From NCBI GenBank assembly GCA_963920705.1, contig OY987234.1, forward strand, positions 23,517,794 to 23,581,793: 64,000 bases of DNA. Reading direction: 5' to 3'. The notes under the pieces were generated by a model. That model ran no database searches. It was not told the origin of the DNA and saw only the letters and a list, made by a program, of their open reading frames with translations. A program made the position numbers and the translations under genes. This DNA comes from Odiellus spinosus. Taxonomy: Eukaryota > Arthropoda > Arachnida > Opiliones > Phalangiidae. Below are positions 228 through 53,157 of the stretch, piece after piece. Each line of letters begins with the position of its first letter. The first letter of the stretch is position 1.

Positions 228-275
228 GAGCGCAGCCGTTGTTGCCGTCCGCTATCTTGTGCAAACCCCAGTAAC
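228..275 (-). CDS. agrn: Agrin-like exon 12: end of laminin-type EGF domain (gene continues)
   Basis: A 48-bp micro-exon with an ATATTAG acceptor and a consensus GTAAGT donor, phase 1 at both ends. It encodes YWGLHKIADGNNGCA, which joins CEPG of exon 11 to give the typical laminin EGF ending CEPG-(Y/F)W-GL-x8-GC. It was found by searching for that ending. A smaller reading that starts at a closer AG (GATAG) is also in phase but would drop the conserved W-G-L. The donor leaves phase 1, so the next exon lies beyond position 1. Confidence 0.85.
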
Positions 276-406: not shown

Positions 407-520
407 CCGGTTCGCAACGGTCGCATCTCGGACCCCCGACTCCCGTCCGGCAGTGGCATTGCTTGGAAACGGGGTCGCACGTCTCTCCGATTGAACCCAA
501 ACGATTGCAAAGACAGTCGC
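407..520 (-). CDS. agrn: Agrin-like exon 11: laminin-type EGF domain, main part
   Basis: This 114-bp exon (acceptor TTCGCAG, donor GTATAA, phase 1 at both ends) encodes [19 protein letters not shown], then [20 protein letters not shown]. This is the laminin-type EGF signature: C-x-C-N, GS-x-G-x2-C, Q-C-x-C and GV-x-G-x2-C-x2-C-x-PG. It contains eight cysteines minus those of the final loop, which lies in exon 12. Its position after the follistatin array is what identifies the gene as agrin rather than a follistatin or SPARC relative. Confidence 0.92.
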
Positions 521-1739
521 CTGCGAAGAACCGACAACGATCACGCCAGAGTAGAAACCAATAGGTTATTTTAATAATAACTCGCTCGGCCGAATCCCGA
601 AATTGATTTAATTAGGAGGATTGGTAGGCCTAGATCCGAAACAGTTTTAGCTCTAGCGTAATCCTCGAATGGCGAGGCTCGTTTTGAACATTGGCGTTAT
701 TCTTGAAATCGTCTTTTGTCTTTATTACTGAAACTATCTCTCTGTATATTTCAATATTCATTATTTTTCCCCGGGCTTTGATTTCGAGTGTTAAATCTCT
801 ATAAGGCTTTCCTCCTCCTCGCTTTTAGTCGCGCGCTGCCCAAGTACTTCTCGGTTTAGTCGTCTTTCTTAGCTCTAGCTCGGCGTTATTATTAATAATT
901 GTTTAAAAGTCGTCGACCCGCTGGCTTACTGGGGCATCCGGCGTTAGTCGTTCCTAAAGCCGCCGTGAATCCGTCCGGACAACATCCAAATTCGCTTTCC
1001 ACGCATTCCCGAGCTTCGGCTCCTTCCAGTTATAGATTAGCGGCGAAGGAGTTAAGACGGACCAAATACGTTAATATTAATTACCGGTAATCCCTTAAAG
1101 CGAGGCTAAACTGTGCTCTCCTCCTTCTAATACCACCGGGAGATTAACGTCGTACAACTGGAGAACGAGGGAGGATAGCGGGTATAATTCAGCCTCGCTT
1201 CGTCGATAAGCTATACGTATACGCTTCCGAATGTATAGTTAGGAATCGAGTGTTCGGAGTTTGTAAAAGTTTTACGAATATTATCCATTCGCTTAAAGAC
1301 CTAGGATTTCTTCCGCCCGTCACCTTCCTGTTTCACAGGAAGTGGGCTCGCCTTCCGAGCTTCCCCGTGGGTAGCGAGGCGAGAGAAAGCCTGGAGCGCG
1401 AGTTTGCTTCCAGGGTGACAGGCGCGAGTAATCCTAGGCCTTTATAACATCGACTAACAATCGTTAACTCCGTTTTAATCCCAAAATGGCGACTAATCCC
1501 GATTATACGCTACGATAACGATTTAAAAATAGATTTTCCTCAAAATTAGAAATAAAAATTTCAACCTAAAAGCTCGGGTTTATCTTTTTATTTTCATGGA
1601 ATTATTTTTTGTATATTCGAATTTTAAGTCGCGAACGATTAATCGGAAAATGAAATTGTATAAATAAATCGAAAAAAGCGCTAAACTATTTTCCGAAGAA
1701 GCCAGTAAGGAGGGTTATCTATGATACGCGCGGGCGTAC
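521..1739 (-). other. Intron 10 (1219 bp)
   Basis: This intron separates the lustrin-like exon from the laminin EGF exon. I see no further cysteine-rich coding piece on either strand, and no mobile element that I can name. Confidence 0.7.
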
Positions 1740-1904
1740 CTTTGCTTCCATCCTCTCGGCAACATTTGGCGAAAGACGAAGACTTGTGGCAATAACTGTC
1801 CGCCGGACAAGGCCGCGATTTCTCCCCTTCTCCGCAATAATATTCGATCCCCGTGTTGGGGTCTCTTAAAGGCCGGTCGCCGTCGCAAGGCGTCACTTTG
1901 GGCT
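1740..1904 (-). CDS. agrn: Agrin-like exon 10: lustrin-type six-cysteine module
   Basis: The 165-bp exon is phase 1 at both ends. Its acceptor is CTTTCCAAG after a strong pyrimidine tract, and its donor is GTACGC. It encodes KPKVTPCDGDRPLRDPNTG, then a Tyr-Tyr-Cys, CPADSYCHKSSS and AKCCRED. The pattern of a Cys, a conserved RPLRD, then CP-x4-C and a terminal Cys-Cys pair resembles the lustrin cysteine-rich repeat found in molluscan shell and nematode secreted proteins. This module is not part of vertebrate agrin. Phase and open frame support it as a real exon of this gene, but it might be alternatively spliced. The family assignment is by eye. Confidence 0.75.
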
Positions 1905-1942: not shown

Positions 1943-1995
<53 letters not shown>

Positions 1996-2538: not shown

Positions 2539-2757
2539 TATCGCATCCGTCGATGTGGACGATTCGTATCATCTTCTGTTGCTGGCAAGACTCCTCTCTC
2601 AACTTGCACTCGTTGGAGTAGAGTTTCCCGTCGGAGCCGCACACCGGGTCCGTTAGTCGCTCGCACTGGAAATGGCAAACGCAGTGAGAAAGCCCTTCCG
2701 AATCCACGTCGCAAATTCCTCCGAAACGACAAATGGCGTCTTTGCAAGCTCGGCTAT
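2539..2757 (-). CDS. agrn: Agrin-like exon 9: follistatin domain 7
   Basis: This 219-bp exon, phase 1 at both ends, has a TCTACAG acceptor and GTAAGA donor. It encodes DSRACKDAICRFGGIC, the Kazal core DPVCGSDGKLYSNEC and the final Cys in HIDGCD. Ten cysteines make it the seventh and last follistatin module before the laminin-type region. Vertebrate agrins usually have eight before the laminin EGF pair, so the count is one lower here. Confidence 0.9.
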
Positions 2758-3124: not shown

Positions 3125-3251
3125 CAATATGAACTCCAGCCACGTCGGTGCATTCTCCGTAGAACAAAGCGCTGAATTCGTCGTTTTTGTAACAAGAGGC
3201 TTTTCTCATTTCGCATTCGTTGGCGTAGGTTGACCCGTCGCTCGCGCAAAC
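3125..3251 (-). CDS. agrn: Agrin-like exon 8: second half of follistatin domain 6
   Basis: The exon is 127 bp, phase 0 to phase 1, with a CGTAAG acceptor and GTAACG donor. It starts VCASDGSTYANEC and continues through MRKASCYKNDEFSALFYGEC, completing domain 6, followed by the linker TDVAGVHI. It carries no long reading frame of its own and was located from the missing Kazal core. The join with exon 7 gives TYEPVCASDG, which is canonical. Confidence 0.85.
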
Positions 3252-4005: not shown

Positions 4006-4120
4006 CGCAAGGTCCTTGGGAAGCGACGATTATGTTGAGCTGTCGCTTGCAAGCGGCCACTTTGAGGGAACACTCGTTGGGGTAGGTGATGGCGTCGTTG
4101 CCACAAACTGGAGCTTCGTG
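4006..4120 (-). CDS. agrn: Agrin-like exon 6: second half of follistatin domain 5
   Basis: The exon is 115 bp, phase 0 at the start (GGCGAAG acceptor) and phase 1 at the end (GTAACC donor). It reads HEAPVCGNDAITYPNEC and continues to SQGPCG, giving the four C-terminal cysteines of the Kazal core of domain 5. The join with exon 5 yields SCDKHEAPVC, with normal cysteine spacing. The intron between the two halves is 1262 bp. Confidence 0.88.
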
Positions 4121-5634: not shown

Positions 5635-5847
5635 TGCACAGCCCTTCGCTCTTGACGCTGATTTCTTTGGCCGTCAAACAAGATTCTCGTCTCAGTTTGC
5701 ATTCGTTGGTGTAAGAAACGGCGTCCGTGCCGCAAACGGGAAGGAATTCCTCCGAGCAACTCGGACATTCGCAAACGGCTTGACCGCGGCTCACGACGCA
5801 CACCGCTCCGAAGGTGCACTCTTTGCCCACGCACGGACCTTCTTCTC
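5635..5847 (-). CDS. agrn: Agrin-like exon 4: follistatin domain 4
   Basis: The exon is 213 bp, phase 1 at both ends, with an AAATAG acceptor and a consensus GTAAGT donor. It encodes a follistatin module starting GEEGPCVGKECTFGAVC, with Kazal core PVCGTDAVSYTNEC and final Cys in SEGLC. Ten cysteines. The usual GSDG of the core is GTDA here, so the second Gly is replaced, a tolerated change in Kazal folds. Confidence 0.9.
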
Positions 5848-6976: not shown

Positions 6977-7192
6977 CCGTGGCGCAATCGCCGCTGTAAA
7001 TGATCCTGAGACTTCGTCTGGATTTGCAAGCTTCGACTCTCAAGGCGCATTCGTTGCTGTACGTTTTCCCGTCCGATCCGCAGACCGGTCTGACCTCGGA
7101 CGAGCAAATGGCGTTGCATCGACAGATTGGACTTCGATTATCGTCCATTTGACAGACCTGCGACGCCGGACATTGGATTCCGTCGCACGGAT
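6977..7192 (-). CDS. agrn: Agrin-like exon 2: follistatin domain 2
   Basis: The exon starts after a TCGCAG acceptor and ends at a GTGAGT donor, phase 1 on both sides, 216 bp. It begins DPCDGIQCP, so the codon for the first Asp spans the 45.6-kb intron. One complete follistatin module is encoded: five N-terminal cysteines, then the Kazal core with PVCGSDGKTYSNEC and a final Cys in YSGDC. Ten cysteines in total. The short tail CATG after the last Cys links to the next module. Modules of this type in agrin are non-inhibitory or weakly inhibitory Kazal folds that act mainly as spacers; that role is inferred from the family. Confidence 0.9.
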
Positions 7193-26822: not shown

Positions 26823-27167
26823 TTAAATTATAATATCAATTTTAGTTAAATTATAATATCAATTTTAGTTAAATTATAATATCAATTTTAGTTAAATTAT
26901 AATATCAATTTTAGTTTAACTAAAATTGATATTATAATTTAATTATAATATCAATTTTAGTTAAATTATAATATCAATTTTAGTTTAACTAAAATTGATA
27001 TTATAATTTAATTATAATATCAATTTTAGTTAAATTATAATATCAATTTTAGTTTAACTAAAATTGATATTATAATTTAATTATAATATCAATTTTAGTT
27101 AAATTATAATATCAATTTTAGTTAAATTATAATATCAATTTTAGTTAAATTATAATATCAATTTTAG
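26823..27167. repeat. Array of fifteen 23-bp units in mixed orientation
   Basis: The unit TTAAATTATAATATCAATTT plus TAG is repeated exactly 15 times (345 bp) with almost no divergence. Reading along the plus strand the order is four direct, one inverted, two direct, one inverted, two direct, one inverted, four direct. Each inversion makes a perfect local palindrome (TAGTTTAACTA at the junction). It lies in the middle of the 3.8-kb element. Confidence 0.9.
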
Positions 27168-27180
27168 TGGTCCCACCTTT

Positions 27181-27670: not shown

Positions 27671-28180
27671 GTTAAACAAGTCTACAACCTAAACACCTTA
27701 ACATTAAACGAGTCTAACACCTAAACACCCTACCGTTAAACGCGTCTACAACCTAAACATCCTAACGTTAAACGCGTCTACAACTTAAACACCCTAACGT
27801 TAAACGAGTCTACAACCTAAACACCCTACCGTTAAACGAGTCTACAACCTAAACACTCTAACGTTAAACGAGTCTACAACCTAAACACTCTAACGTTAAA
27901 CGAGTCTACAACCTAAACACTCTAACGTTAAACGAGTCTACAACCTAAACACTCTAACGTTAAACGAGTCTACAACCTAAACACTCTAACGTTAAACGAG
28001 TCTACAACCTAAACACTCTAACGTTAAACGAGTCTACAACCTAAACACTCTAACGTTAAACGAGTCTACAACCTAAACACTCTAACGTTAAACGAGTCTA
28101 CAACCTAAACATCCTAACGTTAAACGAGTCCACAACCTAAACATCCTAACGTTAAACGAGTCTACAACCTAAACACTCTA
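27671..28180 (+). repeat. 32-bp minisatellite, about 16 copies
   Basis: The unit contains CTAACGTTAAACGAGTCTAC followed by AACCTAAACACT and repeats every 32 bp. Central copies are identical; the first few and the last differ by small changes (ACCGTTAAACG, CATCCTAACG). Each unit holds two TAAAC words, the same word found through both subterminal regions of the surrounding element. Such repeats may be transposase-binding sites; that is inferred from other DNA transposons. Confidence 0.9.
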
Positions 28181-29105: not shown

Positions 29106-29960
29106 AACTCTTTCTCAACCCGTCTCAACTCTTTCTCAACCCGTCTCAACTCTTTCTCAACCCGTCTCAACTCTTTCTCAACCCGTCTCAACTCTTTCTC
29201 AACCCGTCTCAACTCTTTCTCAACCCGTCTCAACTCTTTCTCAACCCGTCTCAACTCTTTCTCAACCCGTCTCAACTCTTTCTCAACCCGTCTCAACTCT
29301 TTCTCAACCCGTCTCAACTCTTTCTCAACCCGTCTCAACTCTTTCTCAACCCGTCTCAACTCTTTCTCAACCCGTCTCAACTCTTTCTCAACCCGTCTCA
29401 ACTCTTTCTCAACCCGTCTCAACTCTTTCTCAACCCGTCTCAACTCTTTCTCAACCCGTCTCAACTCTTTCTCAACCCGTCTCAACTCTTTCTCAACCCG
29501 TCTCAACTCTTTCTCAACCCGTCTCAACTCTTTCTCAACCCGTCTCAACTCTTTCTCAACCCGTCTCAACTCTTTCTCAACCCGTCTCAACTCTTTCTCA
29601 ACCCGTCTCAACTCTTTCTCAACCCGTCTCAACTCTTTCTCAACCCGTCTCAACTCTTTCTCAACCCGTCTCAACTCTTTCTCAACCCGTCTCAACTCTT
29701 TCTCAACCCGTCTCAACTCTTTCTCAACCCGTCTCAACTCTTTCTCAACCCGTCTCAACTCTTTCTCAACCCGTCTCAACTCTTTCTCAACCCGTCTCAA
29801 CTCTTTCTCAACCCGTCTCAACTCTTTCTCAACCCGTCTCAACTCTTTCTCAACCCGTCTCAACTCTTTCTCAACCCGTCTCAACTCTTTCTCAACCCGT
29901 CTCAACTCTTTCTCAACCCGTCTCAACTCTTTCTCAACCCGTCTCAACTCTTTCTCAACC
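29106..29960. repeat. 21-bp minisatellite, about 41 near-identical copies
   Basis: The unit CTCTTTCTCAACCCGTCTCA plus A repeats for 855 bp with no visible variation. As 21 is divisible by three and the unit lacks stops in several frames, it yields long frames: (NSFSTRL)n and (TLSQPVS)n on the plus strand and (ELRRVEK)n on the minus strand. The minus-strand frame starts at an ATG at 30229 and runs 402 codons. I regard all of these as by-products of the repeat, since the flanks look non-coding. Confidence 0.95.
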
Positions 29961-32900
29961 CTTTCTATTGGCTCTTCTAACGCCGAGGACTCTGGGTTTC
30001 TTTGTGTTAATCGAACGAGTCGACGAATTGTAAGAGTAATATAGATCGAAATGAATTTTGAATCGTATTTATTCGATCTTTCCGAAAATGCTGGCGACTC
30101 AATTTTCATTCGGGACTCTCTCGTAAAATGCGCGACATTTCCACCGAGTTGAAATTGTACTCGGAAAGAATCCGGCTTTTCCCTAAAAAGAAATCTCCTT
30201 TTTCCCCATTTTTCCAGCATTTTTTCCATTCTAACGCGTTCCCCCCCGAGAAAAGGGGGGGGGGGGCTTTTCTTTGTCTTTTCCTATTTTTTTCGTTCCG
30301 AATTTTTTTCGTAAGAAGGGAAAGTTTGAAATTAAGGTGAACTTGACAGTTATTTAAGTCCGTCGCGAAATAAAAATAAGCTAAATTTTTTCCCTAGCCG
30401 CTTGGAAGTCGGTAATAGGGAACCAAAAATAATTATATTTTTTATTTTATTTTTTTCATTATCCGGTTTTTTGGGTTAGAGGAAGAGGAAGGTCGGGGCG
30501 GTCGAGCTCGTTTTCTGTCACTTTTTCTCCATTTCTTGACATTTAATTAAGTCTGCTGGGATTATTTTAGTTTCGTCTTGATTTTTTTTCCCGAAATCTT
30601 TTCTTTTCTTCGGATTCCGTAATGAGCTTCCAAATATTAATGAGATCTTTTTTATTCCATCCCTCGCTATTTAAATTGGTTATTTTTTCCGGTAACGTAA
30701 TACATTTTAAATTTGGCGAACTCCGAGCGTAAACGATCTTCGAAATGATCGTATTCTTCGTATTTTAAACAAAGTTAAGTCGAATAATTAAATTTAAAAT
30801 TGAATTGGAAAATATTTATTCTTAAAGCCACGAATTATCCGGAGTTCCAAACGCGATTTCAGTGAACCTTTTCCCAGAGATGTTTCTCCCAATTTAAAGC
30901 CCCCTTTTTCAATTATCTTTTTTTCAAGCTTAGGCCTATAGGGGGGGGGTTATAGTCTTTATATAACATTCGTTTCAAACTCTGGCCTTGTCGCTTATTT
31001 AACGCGAACGCTGACTCTGTCTCTTACATTTTTATATACCGACCTAATTTGCATTTCCAATCCAATCCGTCCGTCTTCGGCGTAATAATATCGAAGACAA
31101 AATGTTCGGACATAAATTGGCAGCCCTTTCAAAATCCAATATATATTCAAATTAAAAAGGGGGAAAAAGAATTTAAAAATGAGTCTTAATTTTGACTGGT
31201 TTCGGGATTATAAACGCGAATTGAATAACGCGGAACTCTCGAGTCCTTTTGTGACTGGGATCAGGATGGCCGCGGGGTGTGTAATTCGGAAGTTGTAAAA
31301 GGGTAAGGAAGCTATAGTTGGTTGGGGAATTGAAGTCGGCGTCACGCGACCACAGCCCCCGACATTATGTCGTATTAGGTAAGCCGCCATCATTCGTATT
31401 ATTATCACGCGATATTCCGATTTTAGAAATCTTGGGGGAAAAAGATAGAAAGACGAGTTTGTCTCGAAAGCGAAGATCAAGAGGAAAATCGAACGATTTC
31501 AAATTTCGGTTCGTTCGTTCGTTCGGCTCAAATTGATCTCGCGTCAATTAACTATCCATTTTATTCCCGAGGCCCTACGTAATCTGTATACGCTGATTAG
31601 TTAATTTTTTAACTCTAGATGGCGCGATTTGTTTACCGTTGGGAGGGGGGGGGGGTCCTGTGGCCTAATATCCTAATTTGTTTACTCGATGACGTCATTT
31701 GTTTATTTTCCCCTCGAAGTGTAGGACTATTCTTCTCTCGGAACTTTTCACCAAGTTTCGTAATGTTTTTAAGATTATTTTTGTCTAGAGAAGGGAAATT
31801 GATCAAAAAACTCGACTCGAGTTTTTCTATTAAACGCTCGTAGTCAATTCCTACACGAAAATATTCCAATTTTTTCCGTCACGTCCGTCGCGTCCCTTCG
31901 TGACGCCAGGAAAAATTTGCTCCCATTTTTTCAGTTTTGTACGATAGATATTTCTATAGGTATTTATTTCATTCCAACGGGAATAAGCGACGCGCTCGAA
32001 GCTAGGTAGATAAGGTTTCCTTCCTATTCGAGGATACGAAGCAAATTGGTCGAATTTCTATAGATAAAGGGTCGTGGCGTCATTTGGGCCGCGGTGAGAA
32101 ACGAAGGTGAACTTCAGTCTCCCCGTTCCGTTCCCTTTCGCCACGGTTCGCGTGTTTCGGGGTTCCCGAATCGATCCGCCTTCCGCGTAAGGTTCCTTCC
32201 TACGCCTCTTTAACTCGTTAAAAAGAAAATATTACCATATGTCAAATTCTCGCCGTTTCTACGAAATAATAGTTAAGGAGAAACGATTTATTCGGCTCGA
32301 TATTTATCGATCGATATTCGACGATCGTTAAAAAACGATTAAAAATATTTACGCGCGTGACGTCGCGTTTGAAGAAATGACCGCGATCGTCAACCAATTA
32401 AAATACGCGACTCTGTCTGTCTGTTTGTCAGTCAGGCGAGAACGCCGAAGTTTTCCCGCGACGTTATCGAATTGAAACAATCGGAAGCCACGCGTTTAAT
32501 CTTAATAGTTGATATTATAAAACTTGCCTTAGTCCCAAATGGGTCTTTTCAAATCCTTTCCACGCTCCGTCCTCTAAGAATCCGACCAATTTGTCCTTTT
32601 TTCATTCTAATATCTTCGTACCTTTAAATTTAATTTTTTGCACGCTACACCCGCGCCTATCTACGCCGCGTCAAAGGCGTCCTTTTCCCTCCTTTTTTCC
32701 AAAGAGATCTCTTTACTATTTTATCTCCAGCATCCTTCGATTCGCTTCCCCTAGTTTTTTCAATTTGATCTTGTAGGCATTTTGTAGAAGAGTTCGATAA
32801 TACTCGAGCCCTTATCTCGATTCTTCGCGCGAAGAACACTCGTCTTAAGTGTTTCGCGTACGGTTCAAATTTCCGACTGCTTTTTCCAACTCTCCTCCTC

Positions 32901-52784: not shown

Positions 52785-53157
52785 CGCATCTGCCCTCGAA
52801 CTTGACCCTTACGTCCTTCATTTGTTTGCAAGCGCCGCGTCTGAGTTCGCATTTGTTGGGATAATCCTGTCCGTCCGAGCCGCACACCGGTCGCGATCCT
52901 TTGCTGTCGCCGTAAGTGGCGCATCTCTCCGGGCAAACGCAATCGGCCAATCGTCCTTCTTTCGACGGTCGACATTCCGCCCCGAAATGACACGCTTTGT
53001 CCCGACACGGGTTCGAATGACCGGGAGGAAACGCGTAACAAGCCTCGACGCTCAAAGTCTTCGCCAAGTAACTCGTCAAACTCATCACCGAAATCGCCAA
53101 TATTCGCGACCGATAGTTCGTCGCCGAGACGACTTTTCTTTTTCCCGCCAATCTCAT
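52785..53157 (-). CDS. agrn: Agrin-like exon 1: N-terminal signal/anchor and follistatin domain 1
   Basis: This exon encodes residues 1-124 and ends in phase 1 at a GTGAGT donor. The ATG at 53157 is the first Met after an in-frame TAA at 53208-53206 and sits in a favourable context (GCCATGA). Residues 1-18 are basic (R2, K6, R7, K8, R16, R18). Residues 19-37 are hydrophobic, then comes the small-residue stretch EACYA (38-42), a plausible signal-peptidase site before F43. The segment could instead stay as a type II anchor, as in the short N-terminal form of vertebrate agrin; a Lys at 33 makes either reading imperfect. Residues 51-124 form a complete follistatin/Kazal domain with ten cysteines and the core PVCGSDGQDYPNKC. 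A 5' non-coding exon further upstream is possible, and Met25 is an alternative start. Confidence 0.85.

Follow-up and report, generated by a model that had tools for sequence, protein, structure and literature searches.

The window, by which we mean the whole analysed stretch of 64,000 nucleotides, codes on its minus strand for the larger part of an agrin's N-terminal half. The first coding exon and the remaining follistatin exons are separated by a 45-kb intron. Read along the gene, the features and the evidence for each are as follows.

52785..53157, minus strand: first coding exon, with a signal-like hydrophobic start (by eye) and the first follistatin domain; Kazal stretch in the joined protein
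6977..7192, minus strand: second follistatin domain; Kazal_2, 51.1 bits
6460..6696, minus strand: third follistatin domain; reading frame and borders, Kazal stretch in the joined protein
5635..5847, minus strand: fourth follistatin domain; Kazal_2, 47.5 bits
5383..5489, minus strand: fifth follistatin domain, first exon; frame and borders, no real Pfam match alone
4006..4120, minus strand: fifth follistatin domain, second exon; Kazal_2, 47 bits
3608..3699, minus strand: sixth follistatin domain, first exon; frame and borders, no Pfam match alone
3125..3251, minus strand: sixth follistatin domain, second exon; Kazal_2, 38.2 bits, and border
2539..2757, minus strand: seventh follistatin domain; Kazal_2, 41 bits, aligns with PDB agrin residues 682-763
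1947..1994, minus strand: intronic (TC)24 tract, 42 bases upstream of the module exon
1740..1904, minus strand: exon of the lustrin-like six-cysteine module; AG/GT borders, frame, phase 1-1
930..1022, minus strand: GCC linker exon (ESEFGCCPDG), 93 bases; aligns with PDB agrin from residue 765 onward; its acceptor was chosen as the better of two phase-compatible AGs
407..520, minus strand: laminin-EGF 1, first exon; EGF_laminin, 41.5 bits, and borders
228..275, minus strand: laminin-EGF 1, second exon; by eye, completes EGF_laminin positions 1-49 of 49 in the joined query

The joined protein model shows seven Kazal_2 stretches, every one of them ahead of the six-cysteine module, and the joined query contains the laminin-EGF pair as two EGF_laminin stretches. 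Below the window start come laminin-EGF 2 and another follistatin domain of the agrin, followed by pieces of EGF and laminin G. One C-terminal piece outside the window was modelled; it matched Laminin_G_1 at 52.8 bits and EGF at 31 bits, and its best PDB match was agrin (E 1.9e-27), with neurexin next (E 1.4e-23). The initial annotation had called the gene an agrin, and the row of Kazal domains, the laminin-EGF pair and the best PDB match of the C-terminal piece all agree on this. Judged by its sequence, the host gene is agrin. An NtA domain was not found in the agrin of the window, and a genome-wide profile search placed NtA at two sites, neither of them here. We consider that the missing NtA domain is not decisive for agrin membership, because C. 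elegans agrin was reported by its describers without NtA (PMC1939731, in the portion used here), though an NtA domain is listed for the same protein in the portion of PMC2874008 used here.

The first intron also holds a 21-base tandem repeat at window positions 29106-29961, with 40.8 copies at 100% match and open in several frames. Near it lie a 32-base array (27671-28180) and a 23-base array (26823-27168). About 24.4-26.7 kb below the window start, on the agrin strand, there is an open reading frame of 780 residues whose translation, judged by eye, resembles a TBC-domain Rab GAP.

The module exon, read on the minus strand from 1904 to 1740, has 165 bases with AG in front and GT behind. Two leading bases and one trailing base place it in phase 1-1, and its frame contains no stop and encodes six cysteines, the last two of which are adjacent. 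These features bear out the initial description of a symmetric phase-1 exon with six cysteines and a terminal Cys-Cys. The numbering given there for the protein (residues 567-621) also agrees with our joined model, in which the module exon starts at residue 567. As for the flanks, the seventh follistatin domain lies on the 5' side as claimed, but the 3' neighbour is the GCC linker exon (1022-930) and not the laminin EGF domain, so that the module stands 3' of the seventh follistatin domain and 5' of the GCC linker exon and the laminin-EGF pair.

A genome search with joined agrin pieces revealed a second agrin gene, which lies about 1.7 Mb away on the opposite strand of the same chromosome. Its order is a follistatin domain, a six-cysteine exon, a GCC linker, laminin-EGF 1 and 2, and a follistatin domain. 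The counterpart exon is located as follows.

C12:21839745-21839897, strand opposite to the window agrin: six-cysteine exon of the second agrin gene; AG/GT borders, same phase

The two modules share 67% identity over 45 aligned residues and have all six cysteines in common. In the nine exon pairs compared, the identities were 79, 76, 74, 67 (module), 64, 61, 55, 52 and 44%, the module being fourth; this set leaves out the first exon, the seventh follistatin domain, the GCC linker and the sixth follistatin domain, and it takes laminin-EGF 1 by its first part only. By tblastn, the seventh follistatin domain and the GCC linker were each 56% identical between the two genes. For the module exon pair, pS was 0.87, which is saturated, and pN was 0.24. 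The flanking introns do not align: when stretches of 1607 and 1037 bases that take in both of them were compared, a single match fell below E 1e-3, namely 141 bases inside the exon (E 8.9e-6), and the next best match had E 0.005.

The conservation of the protein where the introns do not align argues that the module exon is under coding constraint, as its neighbours are. Considering that the second agrin gene has a matching exon in the same position, we regard the module exon as genuine and as more than a product of chance. Its presence in both genes at the same place and in the same phase argues, in turn, that the module is older than the duplication that split the two agrin genes. One of the other frames of the 165-base exon is open too, as would be expected if the exon were a pseudo-exon left open by chance; that explanation is set against the protein conserved in the second gene and introns that are no longer alignable, and we consider it extremely improbable. 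A pseudo-exon or an insertion private to the gene in the window was ruled out, as exon, phase and protein sequence are all preserved in the second agrin, between introns that show no alignment.

The second agrin gene region extends overall over C12:21468762-21841824. In strand order it begins with an NtA domain (C12:21468762), followed by a follistatin domain (21664327) and a follistatin exon (21741627-21742064) with a signal-like start of its own. Accordingly, this gene may have two alternative N-termini, as in vertebrate agrin. On another chromosome, at C6:24680318-24681267, an NtA domain is followed about 0.4 kb on by one follistatin-like reading frame, and this locus is perhaps a short agrin-like gene. 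Elsewhere in the genome, 9 of 13 cox1 matches fell on C17, several of them with TAG codons, and they look like nuclear copies of mitochondrial DNA. At least 89 matches to cuticle proteins mark the genome as that of an arthropod; the insect odorant-binding family gave no hit, a weak negative because the controls gave none either.

Whether the exon is used in every transcript is a separate matter. It could be a cassette exon that only some transcripts use: its phase 1-1 would keep the frame on skipping, its acceptor score of 0.3 was the third lowest among 21 agrin acceptors scored, and the (TC)24 tract lies just upstream of it. The scores, however, come from a small home-made matrix, on which the acceptor of the counterpart exon in the second agrin gene is ordinary (5.7). 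We consider partial use of the exon rather unlikely, and a role of the (TC)24 tract in splicing is speculation.

The initial annotation had described the module as lustrin-type. The family is named after lustrin A from abalone, a mollusc shell protein. In the comparison with domain models, Lustrin_cystein (PF14625) was the best Pfam family for both exons, at 26.0 and 25.3 bits (E 1.2e-5 and 1.9e-5), with the module covering model positions 1-45 of 46. Both modules narrowly missed the curated Pfam cut-off of 27 bits, and the longer reading frame with the module gave 24.4 bits. When the sequence was shuffled with the cysteines kept fixed, 0 of 10 shuffles matched Lustrin_cystein. By hhalign, a profile of the module matched the four lustrin domains of the same genome with a probability of 89.5% (E 2e-6). 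Six sequences, namely the two modules and the four above-threshold lustrin domains, share invariant columns in the pattern C, P-L, C, CP-x4-C and CC. The lustrin-type claim thus stands for the pattern, the best family and the profile comparison, but not for the formal score; the module is probably a divergent lustrin relative that falls below formal family membership.

An HMM built from only the four lustrin domains separated less sharply. It gave the first module 14.6 bits against 14.2 bits for the best of 1000 cysteine-fixed shuffles, and it gave the second module 12.1 bits, which 5 of 1000 shuffles exceeded. Over the 2394 reading frames of the region, the frame with the module exon was the only one of them among the best 12 rows. 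These values leave room for convergence, in which a cysteine-rich module from a different family would have arrived at the lustrin spacing, considering that the Pfam scores are below threshold and that the signal of the small HMM is mostly cysteine spacing. Convergence nevertheless agrees poorly with the failure of all ten shuffles, with the hhalign result and with the P-L and C-P residues held in common, and we consider it improbable.

Other searches with the module gave little. The single-sequence structure model (pLDDT 75.9) shows one hairpin, and no PDB fold match under E 0.001 was found for it, the best having E 1.9. A PDB sequence search returned one match, a Sel1-repeat protein with an unconvincing E of 0.1, and there was no NCBIfam match. 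Pattern matches on prokaryote genome contigs (56) and on viral contigs (17) were in no case confirmed, and animal genes would not be expected in either collection.

The module is easily overlooked when the whole protein is scanned. Pfam did not list Lustrin_cystein in the joined 690-residue protein (E up to 0.01), nor in joined proteins of 256 and 128 residues (E up to 10), and a partial laminin-EGF domain was likewise unlisted in the 690-residue protein. We infer that composition correction hides small modules inside cysteine-rich proteins. A genome-wide search for the Lustrin_cystein family returned four places, all on C14, and the module exon was absent from the result. The gene at C14:8276896-8283044 carries four lustrin domains above the Pfam cut-off, and its further domains, judged by eye, are presumably of the thyroglobulin type 1, antistasin, WAP and Kunitz types.

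Agrin is a classic example of a matrix protein turned synapse organiser, and the question of how the module came into it has two main answers. The initial annotation stated that vertebrate agrins have no such module, and this agrees with the full-length agrin of PDB 8s9p (2068 residues), one sequence rather than a vertebrate survey, which we take to be human. Our query matches its residues 682-763, which are the seventh follistatin domain, and 765-891, which are the GCC linker and both laminin-EGF domains (query 130-255), with nothing in between: residues 82-129 of the query are without a counterpart, and its residues 70-81 align to a proline-rich linker.

On the one hand, the arachnid or harvestman lineage may have acquired the module by exon shuffling at a time before its agrin gene was duplicated. 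The symmetric phase 1-1 exon and the absence of the module from 8s9p are consistent with such a gain, and one lustrin domain of the multi-domain gene on C14 is readable as a phase 1-1 exon. Phase 1 does not single out this exon, however, as all the neighbouring agrin exon borders that were modelled have it as well, and no close donor appeared: when the genome was searched with the second module at E values up to 10, nothing came up besides the two agrin copies. We regard a gain in this lineage as a serious candidate that stays somewhat below even odds.

On the other hand, the module may be ancestral, already present in early arthropod, ecdysozoan or bilaterian agrins and lost on the vertebrate line, with no gain here. 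It is found in two old agrin genes of one genome. In addition, domain scans of joined cysteine-rich proteins miss it, so it could also have escaped those who described invertebrate agrins earlier; PMC2874008, in the portion used here, applied Pfam 23.0 and looked into unmatched regions only where they exceeded 100 residues. Against an ancestral module, the description of C. elegans agrin names no such module in the portion of PMC1939731 used here. We hold this history, too, to be possible to a degree a little short of an even chance. The initial reading of a lineage-specific gain by exon shuffling is thus not supported as it was put, since the module also occurs in the old second agrin gene and predates the duplication, and, on the agrins compared, namely 8s9p and the two of this genome, loss in vertebrates is as probable as gain in this lineage.

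In the literature searched, leaving aside figures and supplements, no paper contained both agrin and lustrin as whole words; no title about agrin stood among the matches listed for lustrin; nothing was found on agrin in Opiliones; and for agrin with chelicerates and arthropods there was one paper, with a single mention of agrin. We tentatively raise the idea, which we hold to be more doubtful than probable, that the module is a standard, unannotated domain of arthropod and perhaps ecdysozoan agrins, overlooked in cysteine-rich scans and lost toward vertebrates. If so, the accepted domain map of agrin would be incomplete. An extra module conserved in two old arachnid agrin copies shows that the N-terminal rod is not fixed outside vertebrates, and the module provides a marker by which gains and losses of domains in agrin can be put in order. 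It also illustrates how a scan of a long cysteine-rich protein in one piece can pass over a small module.

As the best explanation, to which we give a probability of roughly three in four, the exon would encode a genuine extracellular six-cysteine unit of lustrin type in the N-terminal half of an arachnid agrin, already present before the two agrin genes separated. Such a module would fold independently with three disulfides. With about 45 residues, it may act in the follistatin-rich rod, at a distance from the laminin G end, as a compact spacer or as an additional surface for contacts.

Compared with known systems, the module resembles PF14625 in its six cysteines, with P-L after the first, CP-x4-C and a final CC, but it stands single in agrin instead of being repeated and scores below the curated cut-off. 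The agrin of 8s9p has the same follistatin repeats, GCC linker, laminin-EGF pair and following follistatin domain, and laminin G and EGF domains too, but it is without the lustrin-like module between the seventh follistatin domain and the GCC linker. C. elegans AGR-1 is described with seven follistatin domains, two laminin-EGF domains, one follistatin domain, an EGF-like domain and two laminin G domains (PMC1939731, portion used here), and it shares with the window agrin the seven follistatin domains ahead of the laminin-EGF pair. It is set apart by description only: the lustrin module is unnamed in the portions of PMC1939731 and PMC2874008 used here, which relied on Pfam 23.0 and SMART. C. 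elegans MLT-11 is likewise an extracellular matrix protein carrying lustrin domains, but it is a cuticle protein with ten Kunitz domains and a thyroglobulin domain (PMC13181417, portion used here). Deletion of all three of its lustrin domains gave viable animals with no overt phenotype, according to the same portion of that source. Because the lustrin domains of MLT-11 are dispensable, a modest structural role is, by analogy, the safest guess for the module in agrin.
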